NCBI GenBank assembly: GCA_963082975.1 | Contig: OY720345.1 | Coordinates: forward strand, 32,434,611-32,498,610 | Length of the DNA: 64,000 nucleotides | Direction of reading: 5' to 3' | Origin: Labia minor | Taxonomy: Eukaryota > Arthropoda > Insecta > Dermaptera > Spongiphoridae | Shown: piece after piece, positions 37,389-50,044 of the stretch | Layout: the number at the start of each line of letters is the position of its first letter | Numbering within the stretch: the stretch's first letter is position 1 | Position numbers and translations under genes: made by a program | Notes under the pieces: model-generated | What the model saw: only the letters and a program-made list of their open reading frames with translations | Databases searched by the model: none | Told to the model about the DNA's origin: nothing

Positions 37389-40331
37389 ATGAATTTTTTA
37401 CGTCGTCATTTAAAACAATTAGTTTCATTAGTTTTAATTTCAATAATTCGTAAGTTAAAATAATTGTTATCTATCCATTATATAATAAAATTCATATTAA
37501 TAAATTAATATTTATTTATTTTTATCCACTAAATCGTTGATGATAAATTAATTATTTGCCTTCTTGAGTATCACTTAATAGAATTATAAAATTTTACCTT
37601 ATTATATAATTATATATATATATAAATTGTTCTTAAAATACATGTTAAAAATATTTGTTTGTTTTGTTTTGTTTTTGTTGTATTTAATTTAATTGAAATT
37701 ATTTTTTGTCAAAGCTTGATTTTTTTTATATATACAATTTTTAATTTTAAAAACCTCTGATTAACGTAATAAAAGGATTCACAAAAGTCAAATTGTTAAT
37801 TTTTTTTTTAATTCGAATGTAATTTTTTTATATTATTAAAGAAAATCATAATACAATATAAAGAAATGCTTATAAAGATTATTATTTTATTATTTATTCA
37901 CCTTTTATTTTAATTATTTGAATGTTACATCAAAAAATTATCATGCCGATACTTATAATTTCAATATAAATAATAAAAAAATTTTATTTTAATATACATT
38001 TTTATGGACATTTAAGAATCCTTTTGAAATTTGGAAAAGTCAACGTCTTATCTCATAATTATATAAATTTATTATTTTTATTTGATTTTGTTACTCTTTA
38101 TTATTTTAAGGTTTATATAAATTATATATACTAAAAAGCGCACCCTTAATTACTATTAACTATTTATTATTAATTGTTAATTAAATTAAATTAATGTAGT
38201 TTTATCTACCTTTACTACAATATATATTTCATGATTGTATATTAATATGTTTATTTTTTTAGTATTTTGCATTTATAAAAATTGGAATTATGCTTATCGT
38301 GGTTCGGAAAATACATTTTATTCGAATATGGTTATTGAATTGACATCAGCTAAAAGTGATAATGAATTTCGCGAAAATCAATTGCCACTTATACAAATTG
38401 AAAAGAAAGACTTTAAAAATGCTTTAAAAGATGCACATAAACGAATAAAAGAATTAGAAATAAGAATTCAAGAATTAGAACATAGAATACCCCAAAGATA
38501 TCCAGATGTGAAATTTTTAAATTATAAAGCGAGAAAAAGAATATTGGTAATTTTTCTTTAATCGGAATATTTGAATATAAGATACATTATTATATAAAAT
38601 TTATTTTTAGATTACAGGTGGAGCCGGATTTGTTGGTTCTCATCTTGTCGATCGCTTAATGATGGCAGGTCATGAAGTGATTGTGACTGACAATTTTTTT
38701 ACTGGAAGAAAAAGAAATGTGGAACATTGGATGGGTCATGAAAATTTTGAGCTCATACATCATGATATTGTAAACCCATTATTTATTGAAGTGGATGAGA
38801 TATATCATCTAGCAAGTCCAGCTTCGCCCCCTCATTATATGCATAACCCTGTGAAAACAATTAAAACAAATACTGTAGGAACTATCAATATGTTAGGTAT
38901 TTGTTTTCGTTTTTTATAATGAAATAAATTAAATATAATTATTTTAGTATTGTTGAATATGATTATGGTAGGCTCCTGTAGAACGTCCCCAAAATAGAAA
39001 ATAGCTTTATATGGGAAATGATGATACCTATTTATTTAACTTAAACACCTTCTAGTTTGGAACTATTTATTTACCTATACATGCTTATAGCTACGATGCA
39101 TACATGCTCTTGGCTTTAGGTAGCGAGTTATATGAGAGTCTTATATTATAATATATCAATTATAATAAAATTACATTTATTAATTCAATTTATTCTGCTA
39201 TTATATATATGTATATATATTTATATTTTTAGGGTTGGCTAAACGTGTAGGTGCTAGAGTATTAATTGCCAGCACAAGTGAAGTTTATGGTGATCCTGAA
39301 GTTCATCCGCAACCTGAAACTTATTGGGGACACGTCAATCCAATAGGTATAAAAATATATTAAATTTCTTATCAATTAACTTTTAAATCTCTCTGTGATA
39401 ATTGCATAAAAAAATAAAGATAACATTTATTAGGACCAAGAGCGTGCTATGATGAAGGAAAGCGAGTTGCAGAAACTCTCAGTTATGCCTATGCAAAACA
39501 AGAAAAAGTTGACGTTCGAGTAGCTAGAATATTTAATACCTACGGTCCTAGAATGCACATGAATGATGGAAGAGTTGTCTCGAATTTTATATTACAAGCG
39601 TTAAGAAATGAAACTATCACTGTAATATATAGAATAAAATTTATATTTTTTCTTATTAATATCTTTGAAATTAAGAAAGTTTATTTCTGTCCTTGACAAA
39701 TTCTAGATCTATGGTCATGGAAAACAAACCCGTTCATTTCAATATGTGACTGATCTCGTAGATGGACTAATAAGACTAATGGAATCTAACTACACTTTAC
39801 CAGTAAATTTAGGAAATCCTATTGAACATACTATCGAAGGTTGTTTACACTTATATTCATGTATATAATTTTAATAGATAATTTCACAATTGCATAACAA
39901 ATTTTTTTCTTTTTACAGAATTTGCTGTAATTATTAAAAGATTGGTAGGAGGTCCAAGTCGGATAAGACAAGTAGCTGCTGTAGAGGATGATCCTCAAAA
40001 AAGGAAACCTCTTATTATTGTAGCAAGACAGCAATTAGGTTGGGAACCAAAGGTATATATCTCAATTAATAACATTTTATAATTCATATACCTATAAAAA
40101 ACTAAATCCCTTACAATCTGACTGATATAAATATTTAACTAGTTAGAGATTTGTGAGTTTCCGAAAAATTGGGGACTGAAAAAAATAACAAAAAAAATTA
40201 TCTATAATAATTATGTATAATGACTTTTTTAGGTCCCTTTAGATGAAGGGCTTCGTACTACAATTGAATACTTTAGTAATGAATTACGTCGAACCAGTCA
40301 TTCACAGAGAAATGTTTATCGACCGGATTAA
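37389..40331 (+). CDS. UXS1: UDP-glucuronate decarboxylase (UDP-xylose synthase), complete
   Basis: Converts UDP-glucuronate to UDP-xylose with bound NAD in the Golgi, feeding xylose onto proteoglycan linkers. Exons: 37389-37449, 38263-38546, 38611-38896, 39233-39346, 39434-39621, 39707-39839, 39919-40052, 40233-40331; all GT-AG and in frame; 432 residues (human about 420). A short basic N-terminus and a hydrophobic stretch (about 9-25) predict a type II membrane anchor, followed by a coiled-coil stem (about 70-95). The SDR fold starts with the NAD loop GGAGFVG (118-124); TSEVYGDP lies near 225, and the catalytic YxxxK is Y254/K258 in [30 protein letters not shown] and the C-terminal GWEPKVPLDEGL are conserved. 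Near residue 385, KPLIIVARQ replaces the usual KPDI-type segment, a local divergence away from the active site. Confidence 0.96.
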
Positions 40332-45245: not shown

Positions 45246-48200
45246 TTAATCTTTCCAATCCTTTTTAATTTCAAAAGCCCATTCCCATTTTAGGTGTTCA
45301 TGTTTATCGTCATCAGTGAACAGAGAAGAGACTGTATAACTCCCTCGAGCAACCATTCCAGAAGGAGCTGTGTCCAAAGGTGTTAGGTAGGAGTGTGTTT
45401 CCTTTTTCGGAGGATAACTTCCTACCATATGAGTCATTTTGTCCACTAAAATAATTGAAAACAAATTATTTATATTATTTTCCTTAACATCTTAATATAT
45501 TAATTCATTCATTCTAAATAAATTGAATGAAATCAAAATAAAATTGAATTAAGAAAGAAAAATCAAAAAATTCAAGAGATAGTAATTATAATTATACATA
45601 CGAACAGCGCCTATCAGGAGGTAAGCAAAATAGGATAATAAAATTTGATAATTTTTTTATTATTACAAATATTTGATATATTTATTATCATCTTGGATAT
45701 AAAATAAAAATAATAATAATAAAACAAATTACCTGGCATGCCCAGTCGAGATGTTTTTTGAACATATTTTAATCCATGAACAATTTCTCTTTGGACAACA
45801 AAGTCAATTCGAATTCGATATGGTACACCTTCTTTAATTGTAAAAACCTTATAAGAAAAATTGCAGAATAAACAATTAATCGACATTAATATAATTCTAT
45901 ATTAGTTTATTTGGTATTGAGAAAATAGATATTTATTTATTACCTGTTTTTTTAGTTGATTTAAATCGCCAGTTAAATCAAGTTCTACATCAGTACGACC
46001 TTCTACACAGAGAGCTAATTTTTGTACAATCACTTTTCGGGGATCTTCTGGGTCTATATTATTAAAACACATATAGATCAGAAATATTTTAAATTTTATA
46101 ATTATCATTTATATAATATATATATATTGATTATTTGAGTCTTTAATGAAAATAATAATTTGTTATATTATTTAGTGCAGTGGTTCTTAAACTGTGGTCC
46201 GCGGACCCCTGGGGGTCCGCGAAGCCTTTACTGGGGGTCCGCGGTCCTCGGAAAAAAATCATCGTAAAAATATATACATATATAAATATTTAAAGTTCAT
46301 TGTTTAACTATATCCTCCTAGAGAATTACGGCTATAATTTAATACTATTAATAATACTATTTTATTTTATTAAATTGATAATTATGTCAATTAATTTTTT
46401 GTGAATAAATAAACATATATAAAAAACTATATATAAAATTTGAATTTTCATCCATTCATTCATTTAAAATCATTTTTCGATTGTTCCTTTAAAATAACCC
46501 CTCTTAGGGGCTCGGAAGGGGAGGCATATAAGGGAATTTTCTTTCACTTTGTTATTGGGGAAAACCAGGGGAGGGGACAGTCTTACCCGGAAAAACCCAA
46601 ATTGTCAGCGTCCACTCTGGGGTTTTAAACAGTTTTAAAGCAAATGTTAATTATAAGTTCATTTCTCAACGAGTTGTATCTTTAAATTATTTTTATTAAT
46701 GTTAATTATAAGTTCATTTCTCAACGAGTTGTATCTTTAAATTATTTTTATTAATTTAATTAATTATAATTAAATTATAGCTAATAATAGTTTATTATAG
46801 CTAATAATTTTTTTTAATTTTTAGTGTAATTTGCATGATCATTATTTTATAAAAACACTAAACACATTTTGCAATTTCCCAGAAAGCCTGTTTTTGAGAG
46901 TAAGTATAAGTTTGTTTTATGAATAAAAAATATTTATTTTAATAATATTTTAGAATCAAATTACGAAATTAATAATATTTTAGAATCAAATTACGAAATT
47001 AATAATATTTTAGAATCAAATTACGAAATATATTTATTATATAAATTAATATTCATTTAAAATGATATTAAATCATTTATTTAAAATGATTTAAAACATT
47101 TATTAAAATGATTTAAAACATTCATTTAAAATGATATTAAAACATTCATTTAAAATCATATTAAAACATAGCTAGTAAATAATAATTCGTTATATTTATA
47201 TTATATTTATATCATATTTATATTATTGTAGTTCAATGTTAATAAATTACTCCATAAAATGGATCGTTGGCTACAAACTGGTTCAACACAGAAACGGAAA
47301 GAATCAGATGATGAGGCATCAACAGCAAACTCTACCAAGAAACGAAAATATTCGGATGATTATTTATCATTTGGATTTACTTATATTTGCAACAATGATG
47401 TGGAAAGACCAGTCTGCGTTCTATGTCAGGAAAGTTTATCCAATGAAAGTATGAAACCTGCTAATCTCAGACGTCATTTACAAACAAAGCACAGCGAGCA
47501 TGTTAGTAAGTCTATCGAATTTTTTAAAATGAAAAAAGAAGAACTTAATTCAAGTCAGAAATTGATGGTAAAGACGGGATCTGGTGGTATGAGTAAGAAA
47601 GCAGTAATGGCATCATATGAAGTAGCTCTACTTATTGCTAAAGCAGGAAAGCCGCATAATATAGCAGAGCAATTAATTCTTCCTGCTACAAAAGTAATTA
47701 CAAATATAATGTTAGGAACTAAAGCAGCAAACGATATAAATTTGATTTCATTATCAAATGATACGGTTAAGAATAGGATTGAAGACATGTCATGTAATAT
47801 AAAAGAAGAATTAATATCGAGAGTGCGCAAAAGTCACTATTACTCATTACAATTGGATGAAAGTACTGATGTCACTAATAATGCCAATTTGTTAGCTTTC
47901 ATTAGATATGAGTTTGAAAATCAAATACAAGAAGATGTATTGTTTTGTGATTCACTACCTTCACGAACGACAGCTAATGACATATTTAACAGTTTGAATA
48001 ATTTTATAACCGAAAATGAAATAGAGTGGCCAAAATGTGTTGGAATTTGCACTGATGGTGCTCGTGCAATGTCAGGTACAAGAACTGGATTGATTGCTCT
48101 TATTAAAAATGTTGCGCCTCAGGTTGTTTGGAATCATTGCTGCATTCACAGAGAATCATTAGCAGCCAAAAATATGTCACCAGATTTGAAAAGAACATTA

Positions 48201-50044
48201 GACGAAGTAGTTAAAATTGTCAATTTCATTAAGGCTCGTCCACTTAATTCCAGAGTTTTTAAAATTTTGTGTGAGGAAATGGGTAGTCAACATACACATT
48301 TATTATTACATACAGATGTACGTTGGTTGTCCCGCGGGAAAGTACTCATTCGCCTTTTTGAGCTTCGAGATGAAATACGATTGTTTTTAATAGATGCGCA
48401 TTTTGAACTGACCGAATGTTTCAATGATTTTATCTGGTTAGCTAAGGTGGCTTACTTGACTGATATTTTTACAAAATTGAACGAACTTAATTTGAGCCTG
48501 CAAGGTACTGTTGTAAATATATTTAAAGTTGAAGATAAAATAGAAGCAATGATTAAAAAAATCGACTTGTGGTCGAAACGCATCCAGAACGGTGTATATG
48601 AGTCTTTTCCAACTCTCAATGATTTCATAGAAAGCTCCAGTGAAAAATTGCTTAATCAAACGCGTCAATTATTTGTTGAACATTTAATTACTTTGAAAAG
48701 CAACTTCAGGAAGTATTTTTCTACTCCTGATCCTTGCAATAACTGGATCAGAGATCCATTTAATATGGAAATTACAAATGCTAAACATTTATCTGCACCT
48801 GAACAAGATATTCTCGTGGAATTATCATGTGATACAACTTATAAACTAAAATTTAACAAAACTGAATTGAGCAACTTTTGGTTACTTCTCAGGTCAGATT
48901 ATCCTGCGCTTGCAAATAAAGCACTTCAACACTTGATTCCATTCTGCACAACATATTTATGCCAAAAAGCTTTTTCGGTACTATTTTATATTAAGTCTAA
49001 ATATAGAAACAAATTAAATGTAGAGCCGGATCTTAGATTAAAAGTTTCCAATATTAAGCCAGATATTGAGATTCTTGTTTCAAGAAAACAACTGCATACA
49101 TCTCATTAAATATGTAAGTTATATTTAATGAGATAGATGCAGTTATTTTTTAAAATATTTCTTATTTAATATTTTCTGAAAAAAATTATAAAATATTTAT
49201 ATGAATTTAATGTAAGTACCCATTATAATTTGTGAGATTTGTTGCTATGACAATGTTTGTATTTTCTTTCTTCAATATTATAATTTCTAATAAAATGTGT
49301 TCTACAAAATGCAAAAAAATCGTTATTCACCAATCACTGTTAGAAATATTCATCATATATCCTTGTCCTTATGAGATCGTAAGCCAGAAATTAATTAATA
49401 AAATGACGTAAAGTACCTAAAGTTGTGATGGGGGTCCGTCAAAAAAAATTTTTTCAAGTGGGGGTCCGTGGAGTACATAAGTTTAAGAACCTATGATTTA
49501 GTGTATATAAAATCCAAAACACTAAAATAGATTTATTTTATTTAAATCTTTTCCCAGGTTTTAATACTTTTATATTCTTGTGTGTTTCAAGCAAAATTAT
49601 CCAACATACTAGCATTGCTTAAATATTTTGGAATGAAAAAATAACTTTTAAAAGCTTTTTATAAATAAATTGAATTTCATTCTAATGTTTCTAATCTTTT
49701 ATTATGTTTGTGATATTTAACCCGCAAATTTAAAATTAATTAATTATTATAATTTATAAAAATATGTAAATTTGATGATGATTATGTAACTAAAAAGTTA
49801 ATTCTAATTTATATATATATAACATACATAGTATAATTTTTCCGGACTGTGCATCTCCTAATAAAGTCTCTTTATATTTACGAAGACTCTCATCGCCTTG
49901 ATCAGCAGCTAAAATTTCTTCAATTGATTTCTGAGCTGGTGGTTTATATGCAGCTGCTGCTGCATTGGCTTCTTCATCTTCATCCTCGTGCAAATGAAGG
50001 TTGTCCACTCCTTCGGCAACCTTATCTGTTTCAGCAGAAGCCAT
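45246..50044 (-). CDS. RhoGDI: Rho GDP-dissociation inhibitor, complete
   Basis: Cytosolic chaperone that extracts Rho-family GTPases from membranes and keeps them GDP-bound. Coding exons: 50044-49828, 46053-45944, 45847-45733, 45445-45246; all GT-AG and in frame; 213 residues (human about 204). The N-terminal arm (1-about 70) is acidic, with YKPPAQKSIEEILAAD and ESLRKYKETLLGD, the helices that contact the GTPase switch. The immunoglobulin-like prenyl-binding domain follows: VELDLTGDLNQLKKQ, FTIKEGVPYRIRIDF, VQREIVHGLKYVQKT, MVGSYPPK, GSYTVSSLFTDDDKHEHLKW and the invariant end IKKDWKD. An acceptor directly precedes the ATG, so the leader is spliced (see 51881). The 3.8-kb first coding intron contains a complete hAT transposon in the opposite orientation. 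Confidence 0.96.
46645..47030. repeat. Tandem repeats in the hAT 5' leader
   Basis: A 55-bp unit occurs twice in tandem (46645-46699 and 46700-46754), nearly identical. A 30-bp unit beginning AATAATATTTTAGAATC occurs three times (46941-46970, 46971-47000, 47001-47030). A looser array around CATTTAAAATGAT follows to about 47165. All lie between the left end and the transposase start. Confidence 0.85.
47259..49109 (+). CDS. hAT transposase, ZBED5-like, open but with altered catalytic residue
   Basis: 616 codons without a stop. Domains: BED zinc finger with C53, C56, H73 and H78 (VCVLC...LRRHLQTKH); hAT catalytic fold with first acidic residue D200 in LDESTDV and second D266 in CTDGARAM; a CCIH motif (294-297) and RW at 355-356 in TDVRWLSRG; and a C-terminal dimerisation-type block ending KYRNKLNVEPDLRL. 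In related hAT proteins the third catalytic acid is the E of a CE..FS motif; here the segment is YLCQKAFSVL, with Q569 (codon CAA). By analogy with Hermes D180/D248/E572 this should remove or strongly reduce cleavage. The start at 47259 gives MDRWL, typical of this family. Function as a DNA-binding protein could remain. Confidence 0.9.
   Translation: MDRWLQTGSTQKRKESDDEASTANSTKKRKYSDDYLSFGFTYICNNDVERPVCVLCQESLSNESMKPANLRRHLQTKHSEHVSKSIEFFKMKKEELNSSQKLMVKTGSGGMSKKAVMASYEVALLIAKAGKPHNIAEQLILPATKVITNIMLGTKAANDINLISLSNDTVKNRIEDMSCNIKEELISRVRKSHYYSLQLDESTDVTNNANLLAFIRYEFENQIQEDVLFCDSLPSRTTANDIFNSLNNFITENEIEWPKCVGICTDGARAMSGTRTGLIALIKNVAPQVVWNHCCIHRESLAAKNMSPDLKRTLDEVVKIVNFIKARPLNSRVFKILCEEMGSQHTHLLLHTDVRWLSRGKVLIRLFELRDEIRLFLIDAHFELTECFNDFIWLAKVAYLTDIFTKLNELNLSLQGTVVNIFKVEDKIEAMIKKIDLWSKRIQNGVYESFPTLNDFIESSSEKLLNQTRQLFVEHLITLKSNFRKYFSTPDPCNNWIRDPFNMEITNAKHLSAPEQDILVELSCDTTYKLKFNKTELSNFWLLLRSDYPALANKALQHLIPFCTTYLCQKAFSVLFYIKSKYRNKLNVEPDLRLKVSNIKPDIEILVSRKQLHTSH

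Follow-up and report, generated by a model that had tools for sequence, protein, structure and literature searches.

How does a transposon whose transposase appears to lack a catalytic acid come to be multiplied within a genome? The question is raised by a 64,000-nucleotide stretch of DNA from the dermapteran Labia minor (GenBank assembly GCA_963082975.1, contig OY720345.1, positions 32,434,611 to 32,498,610), hereafter called the window, in which a 3,318-bp hAT element lies on the + strand at 46178-49495, between two exons of a RhoGDI gene and antisense to it. The original prediction, made from the letters of the window, described a complete element inside a RhoGDI intron with an 8-bp target-site duplication, both ends and a transposase frame of 616 codons. 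All of these are confirmed, and both ends are intact. The prediction also drew attention to residue 569 of the transposase, which is a glutamine (Q) within TTYLCQKAFSVL at the place where the third catalytic glutamate (E) was expected. Here we describe eight copies that carry this glutamine, all with a second change at the next codon, within a large and young family. We consider it likely that the locus records a recent burst of a Buster-type family, in which a full-length Q copy, probably dead for cutting, was moved in trans by its E569 relatives.

Residue 569 was compared with a known hAT active site by taking the Hermes sequence from PDB and aligning its C-terminus to the window protein, with 2,000 shuffles as a control. 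The alignment covers 51 ungapped columns with a score of 48, and none of the 2,000 shuffles did as well (highest 46). Q569 stands opposite Hermes E572, the E of SERTFS, which we take to be catalytic. This position agrees with the predicted site of the third acid, as does the residue found in the family: the glutamate is missing from the window copy and seven others and present at 64 of the 71 family places scored. Relatives do not place it elsewhere, since the other members keep E at 569. The glutamate of the DDE triad is required in the hAT transposase Kat1: the accessible part of PMC4763223 reports that E895A abolished cleavage and target joining, and names the CXXH motif as important in both Kat1 and Hermes. 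Judged by this comparison of active sites, the Q569 protein is probably unable to cut DNA. No description of an E-to-Q hAT sublineage was found among the literature matches listed, in a search not aimed at L. minor.

The window protein was used to search the 604-Mb genome, and the best 71 of 3,614 first-look candidates were scored. All 71 places, the window copy among them, have 99-100 % protein identity over residues 1-614 or 1-616, as expected of the young element that had been proposed, and an in-frame stop occurs in two. Codon 569 reads E at 64 places (GAA, then CAA) and Q at 7 (CAA, then AAA); the expected glutamate is thus found in most copies, and Q is not unique to the window. What had been explained by a single base change, GAA to CAA, proves to be two changes, E569Q and Q570K (together, QK), which occur as the same pair in 8 of 8 Q copies. 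Fifty of the 71 places were taken with their flanks, and the remaining 21 first as the frame or as a C-terminal piece, three of which (L074, L077 and L078) were later read whole.

Copies were counted genome-wide with a 32-base pattern around codon 569, in which 26 bases are fixed and the six of codons 569-570 are free. This context has 1,580 exact matches including the window copy, and the reversed control has none; copies altered in the 26 fixed bases go uncounted, so that 1,580 is a lower bound. Among the context matches listed (100, all on contig C1) the sequence is GAACAA throughout. When the first base of codon 569 is limited to A, C or T, 8 of the 1,580 contexts match and all read CAAAAA, while 1,572 keep G. 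Codon 569 was read in all but some 1,400 of the G-starting contexts, and every one read encodes E. The single-step intermediates CAACAA and GAAAAA do not occur in the exact context, and allowing one mismatch adds nothing. In the hAT family to which the element belongs, this part of the transposase gene is present at least 1,580 times, and the copies read are young. Groups of identical sequence, of up to four, exist among E copies too (53 elements compared in full), and the near-identity of the copies read, these groups included, indicates that these copies are, taken together, young.

Of the eight Q copies, six (the window copy, L002, together with L003-L007) do not differ at any of the 3,318 bp, and each is flanked by a perfect 8-bp target duplication of its own, six different ones in all. 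Comparison of their flanks over 419 bp on the left and 1,111 bp on the right gave six distinct matches, one strong and five short and weak, none of them at an insertion edge. The strong one, a 364-bp inverted match between L005 and L006, starts within the 3′ flanks, after 587 bp in one and 747 bp in the other. Identical elements with separate target duplications mean that the QK change is older than the window insertion, and that the Q sublineage transposed several times, and recently, after the change arose. The proposal that the window copy itself became inactive is not supported in that form, as the change was inherited and the identical 3,318-bp element is present at five other loci; inactivity is what the active-site comparison predicts for all of them.

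The ends of the elements point to a possible source of the movement. Among 45 E elements, 43 have no listed difference from the window copy in the first 46 or last 38 bp, of which the outermost 10-11 bases served to locate the ends and so could not differ. As the ends are alike in E and Q elements, the E transposase should recognize both, and with family-type ends and 1,572 of 1,580 contexts keeping the first base of a glutamate codon, movement in trans would explain the spread without new chemistry. We propose that a source element gained E569Q and Q570K before the window insertion, and that its protein would still fold and bind the ends yet could not cut. Q copies would then have been excised and reinserted in trans by the transposase of E569 copies, and the QK change may have passed to two other backgrounds by gene conversion or recombination between copies.

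This last step concerns the three sequence backgrounds on which the QK change is present, that of the six identical copies and two further ones. L074 and L075, the seventh and eighth Q copies, belong by a 9-bp insert and further differences to a second family form, of which the other members read with the insert (L052, L077 and L078) have E at codon 569. The four-gamete test was applied to the 53 elements, a set that excludes L028 because its left end was not located. Six other polymorphisms, one of them the 9-bp insert, fail it when paired with QK; overall, 31 of 276 polymorphism pairs fail. Because the double change does not vary between copies and intermediates were not found, a single origin with later gene conversion or recombination is likelier than three origins. 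This suggests that QK reached the two other backgrounds by such exchange. On contig C2, about 332 kb separate the window copy from L074; a pair this close arises in 3 % of draws of eight random places, so that their proximity is only suggestive of local conversion. As an observation in its own right, the 9-bp insert of L074, L075, L077, L078 and L052 is in frame, corresponds to three residues and lies in a basic stretch before the BED finger.

Several points weigh against movement in trans of a cutting-dead copy, or against parts of that account. Multiplied Q copies would be expected from an active Q enzyme as well. The Kat1 mutant is E to A, whereas the change in this family is E to Q. The case for conversion draws on few sites, one of which is a tandem-repeat unit able to change repeatedly. 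Most of the fully read copies come from a ranking by likeness to the Q protein, which favors Q copies and intact frames. Finally, L394*, the single nonsense allele counted genome-wide, was matched once, and it provides no second case of a dead-frame allele that is spreading.

The alternative that survives best is that the Q569/K570 transposase is still active, the loss perhaps being offset by K570 or a neighboring residue, and moved its own copies. It would account for the presence of six identical elements in target duplications of their own, for the appearance of the QK change always as a pair and never singly in the context searched, and for the fact that the six identical Q copies otherwise match the majority protein of the 53 frames. 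We nevertheless regard it as unlikely: the third acid is required in Kat1, where E895A is dead as far as the accessible text of PMC4763223 describes it, and the 1,572 contexts that keep G represent many potential donors, which makes self-movement unneeded.

A second possibility, to which we give slightly less weight again, is that Q copies were favored because the Q protein acts as a non-cutting subunit of a multimer that damps transposition, which would make it a self-spreading dominant-negative regulator. Dominant-negative autoregulation is reportedly found in mariner elements. The frame, BED finger, CxxH and C-terminal motifs of the Q protein are intact apart from residues 569-570, and damping is possible in principle because hAT transposases are multimeric, Hermes forming an octamer according to the part of PMC10368747 that was available. 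However, at 8 of 1,580 contexts there is no sign that Q rose by selection, and copies so young would be expected to have intact frames in any case. In a simulation of frame decay under an assumed AT-biased spectrum, the first stop appeared after a median of 13 substitutions (0.7 % per site) and by 50 substitutions in 95 % of cases. Decay this slow relative to the youth of the copies read means that an open frame needs no purifying selection. Relative to the majority of the 53 frames, 8 synonymous and 7 non-synonymous changes were found (the latter including one stop and the two of the QK pair), or 0.23 of expectation; we make no claim of selection from this ratio because all 53 frames belong to the best 71 of the 3,614 candidates, a choice made by likeness to the window protein. 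The broader proposition that the spread of the eight Q copies was due to their own protein, whether active in a way undescribed for hAT elements or as a dominant-negative subunit, is in our judgment doubtful.

It had also been proposed that the family shifted to a binding-only protein, in the manner of the vertebrate ZBED genes, and a domesticated gene of this kind would combine a retained BED finger with a changed catalytic residue, as here. We consider this very improbable. Codon 569 begins with a base other than G in only 8 of the 1,580 contexts. Domestication would be expected to leave a single host gene with its ends lost; here neither the ends nor the target duplication is damaged, and six loci carry the identical element. 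The analogy is itself weak. ZBED5/Buster1 and other domesticated ZBED genes share the BED finger and the hAT origin, but they are host genes that keep the DDE triad, according to the available text of PMC3606216, whereas the window element is mobile and multicopy. Domesticated Buster-family genes are moreover described, in the portion of PMC3517528 that was accessible, as lacking terminal inverted repeats (TIRs). Hardly credible at all is an origin of the extra Q copies by segmental duplication or through an assembly artefact, which would explain their letter-for-letter identity but neither their six different 8-bp duplications nor flanks without a match at the insertion edges.

As far as it can be tested, this appears to be an ordinary Buster-type kind of hAT element with an unusual sublineage. 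Target duplications are perfect 8-mers in 48 of the 50 elements with both ends located, and perfect ones were also found in L075, L077 and L078. Among perfect duplications, position 4 is T in 48 of 48 and position 5 is A in 47 of 48, and the accessible text of PMC3517528 gives the Buster target rule as nnnTAnnn. On these sequence features the element is a hAT of Buster type, the Buster assignment being made by target rule. Its likeness to the Buster family (TcBuster, AeBuster and Mar, as named in the available parts of PMC3499496 and PMC3517528) lies in the 8-bp nnnTAnnn duplications and in a BED finger and hAT C-terminal region, both weak by Pfam in the window element; it differs in that eight copies of the family have Q-K in place of E-Q at the third acid. 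L033 and L043, the two exceptions among the 50, have a common left 8-mer, GTCTAGGG, and differing right 8-mers; perhaps family copies recombined, or the insertion site was a repeat.

Hermes is an Ac-family hAT element with a target rule different from nnnTAnnn. It resembles the window protein in the ungapped C-terminal region and in length (612 residues against 616; PDB 8edg, 2bw3, 4d1q and 6dww), but a phmmer search of PDB with the whole window protein gave no match up to E 1. No hAT protein was retrieved from PDB with the whole protein, the C-terminus or a two-row profile, the sole row returned by the profile being a ferredoxin at E 3.7. Kat1 of Kluyveromyces lactis is likewise a hAT transposase with BED, DDE and CXXH, in the accessible text of PMC4763223, and differs in being domesticated for mating-type switching with its catalytic acids present and required. 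Outside this genome, no relatives were found in viral contigs, GTDB genome contigs, phages or plasmids. A viral contig that matched a DNA pattern of the RW motif was rejected as a chance match, its best tblastn match having E 0.39.

Elements moved by a borrowed transposase are mostly deletion derivatives. Within a single genome, the copies described here form a natural full-length E/Q allele pair for the third catalytic residue, with the same ends, in which the recent spread of the mutant is visible. Such a pair lends itself to asking whether a hAT transposase that cannot cut is carried along in a burst or slows it, and the Q copies to asking how widely gene conversion can distribute a mutation within a family.

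Table 1. Features of the hAT element and adjoining RhoGDI exons, in positions of the window
Feature	Position	Strand	Remark
RhoGDI exon downstream of the element-bearing intron (gene orientation)	45944..46060	-	Pfam Rho_GDI E 0.0023, below cut-off alone; next profile segment
Target-site duplication ATTTAGTG, 8 bp	46170-46177 (left), 49496-49503 (right)		exact match in window copy
Left end: terminal inverted repeat and subterminal GGGGTCCGCG repeats	46178..46243	+	
55-bp tandem units, n=2	46643..46752	+	leader; some family copies lack one unit
C (element position 710)	46887	+	private to six identical Q copies; G in other 47/53 elements
T (element position 736)	46913	+	private to six identical Q copies; A in other 47/53 elements
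30-bp tandem units, n=3	46939..47029	+	leader; 2 to 4 units across family copies
Transposase open reading frame, 616 codons plus stop	47259..49109	+	no internal stops
BED-type zinc finger, residues 49-81 (C53, C56, H73, H78)	47403..47501	+	Pfam zf-BED, below cut-off
Codon D200 (LDESTD)	47856..47858	+	intact
Codon D266 (CTDGA)	48054..48056	+	intact
CxxH motif, residues 294-297	48138..48149	+	intact
Codon W356 in VRWL	48324..48326	+	intact
hAT C-terminal dimerisation region, residues 533-587	48855..49019	+	Pfam Dimer_Tnp_hAT, below cut-off
CAAAAA, codons Q569-K570	48963..48968	+	GAACAA (E-Q) in most family copies read
Hairpin, 29-bp arms, 90 % complementary	49085..49149	+	spans end of transposase frame and stop
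Right end: subterminal GGGGGTCCGT repeats and terminal inverted repeat	49428..49495	+	
RhoGDI exon upstream of the element-bearing intron (gene orientation)	49832..50044	-	Pfam Rho_GDI E 4.3e-11

By their motifs, D200 and D266 are presumably the first and second catalytic acids, and W356 is taken to correspond to the active-site tryptophan of Hermes. The zf-BED match has E 0.0072 and 16.8 bits against a cut-off of 20.6, with the C-x2-C...H-x4-H pattern present, and the Dimer_Tnp_hAT match has E 0.007 and 16.6 bits against a cut-off of 21.4. The TIRs are imperfect, beginning CAGTGGTTCTTAAAC... at the left and ending ...GTTTAAGAACCTATG at the right, with GGGGTCCGCG-type subterminal repeats inside them. 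The hairpin at the end of the frame may be a 3′-end or regulatory feature. A hairpin-templated origin of the double change, in which the Q allele completes AAAAAGCTTTTT, was considered and rejected, as the template fits just one of the two bases. Elsewhere in the family, the frames of L027 and L028 (G000:C6:54455443 and 54457991) start about 2.5 kb apart on the same strand, and the left end of L028 was not found.

In the host gene, all four RhoGDI exon pieces scanned match successive segments of Pfam Rho_GDI, the second falling below the cut-off when scanned alone. The window also holds, at 38611-40079 on the + strand, exons of a NAD-dependent epimerase-like gene, the first piece of which matches Pfam Epimerase and GDP_Man_Dehyd; we take the gene to resemble UDP-glucuronate decarboxylase. 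At 611-1554 there are two adjoining reverse transcriptase frames like those of long interspersed nuclear elements, with a Pfam RVT_1 match on 611-997.

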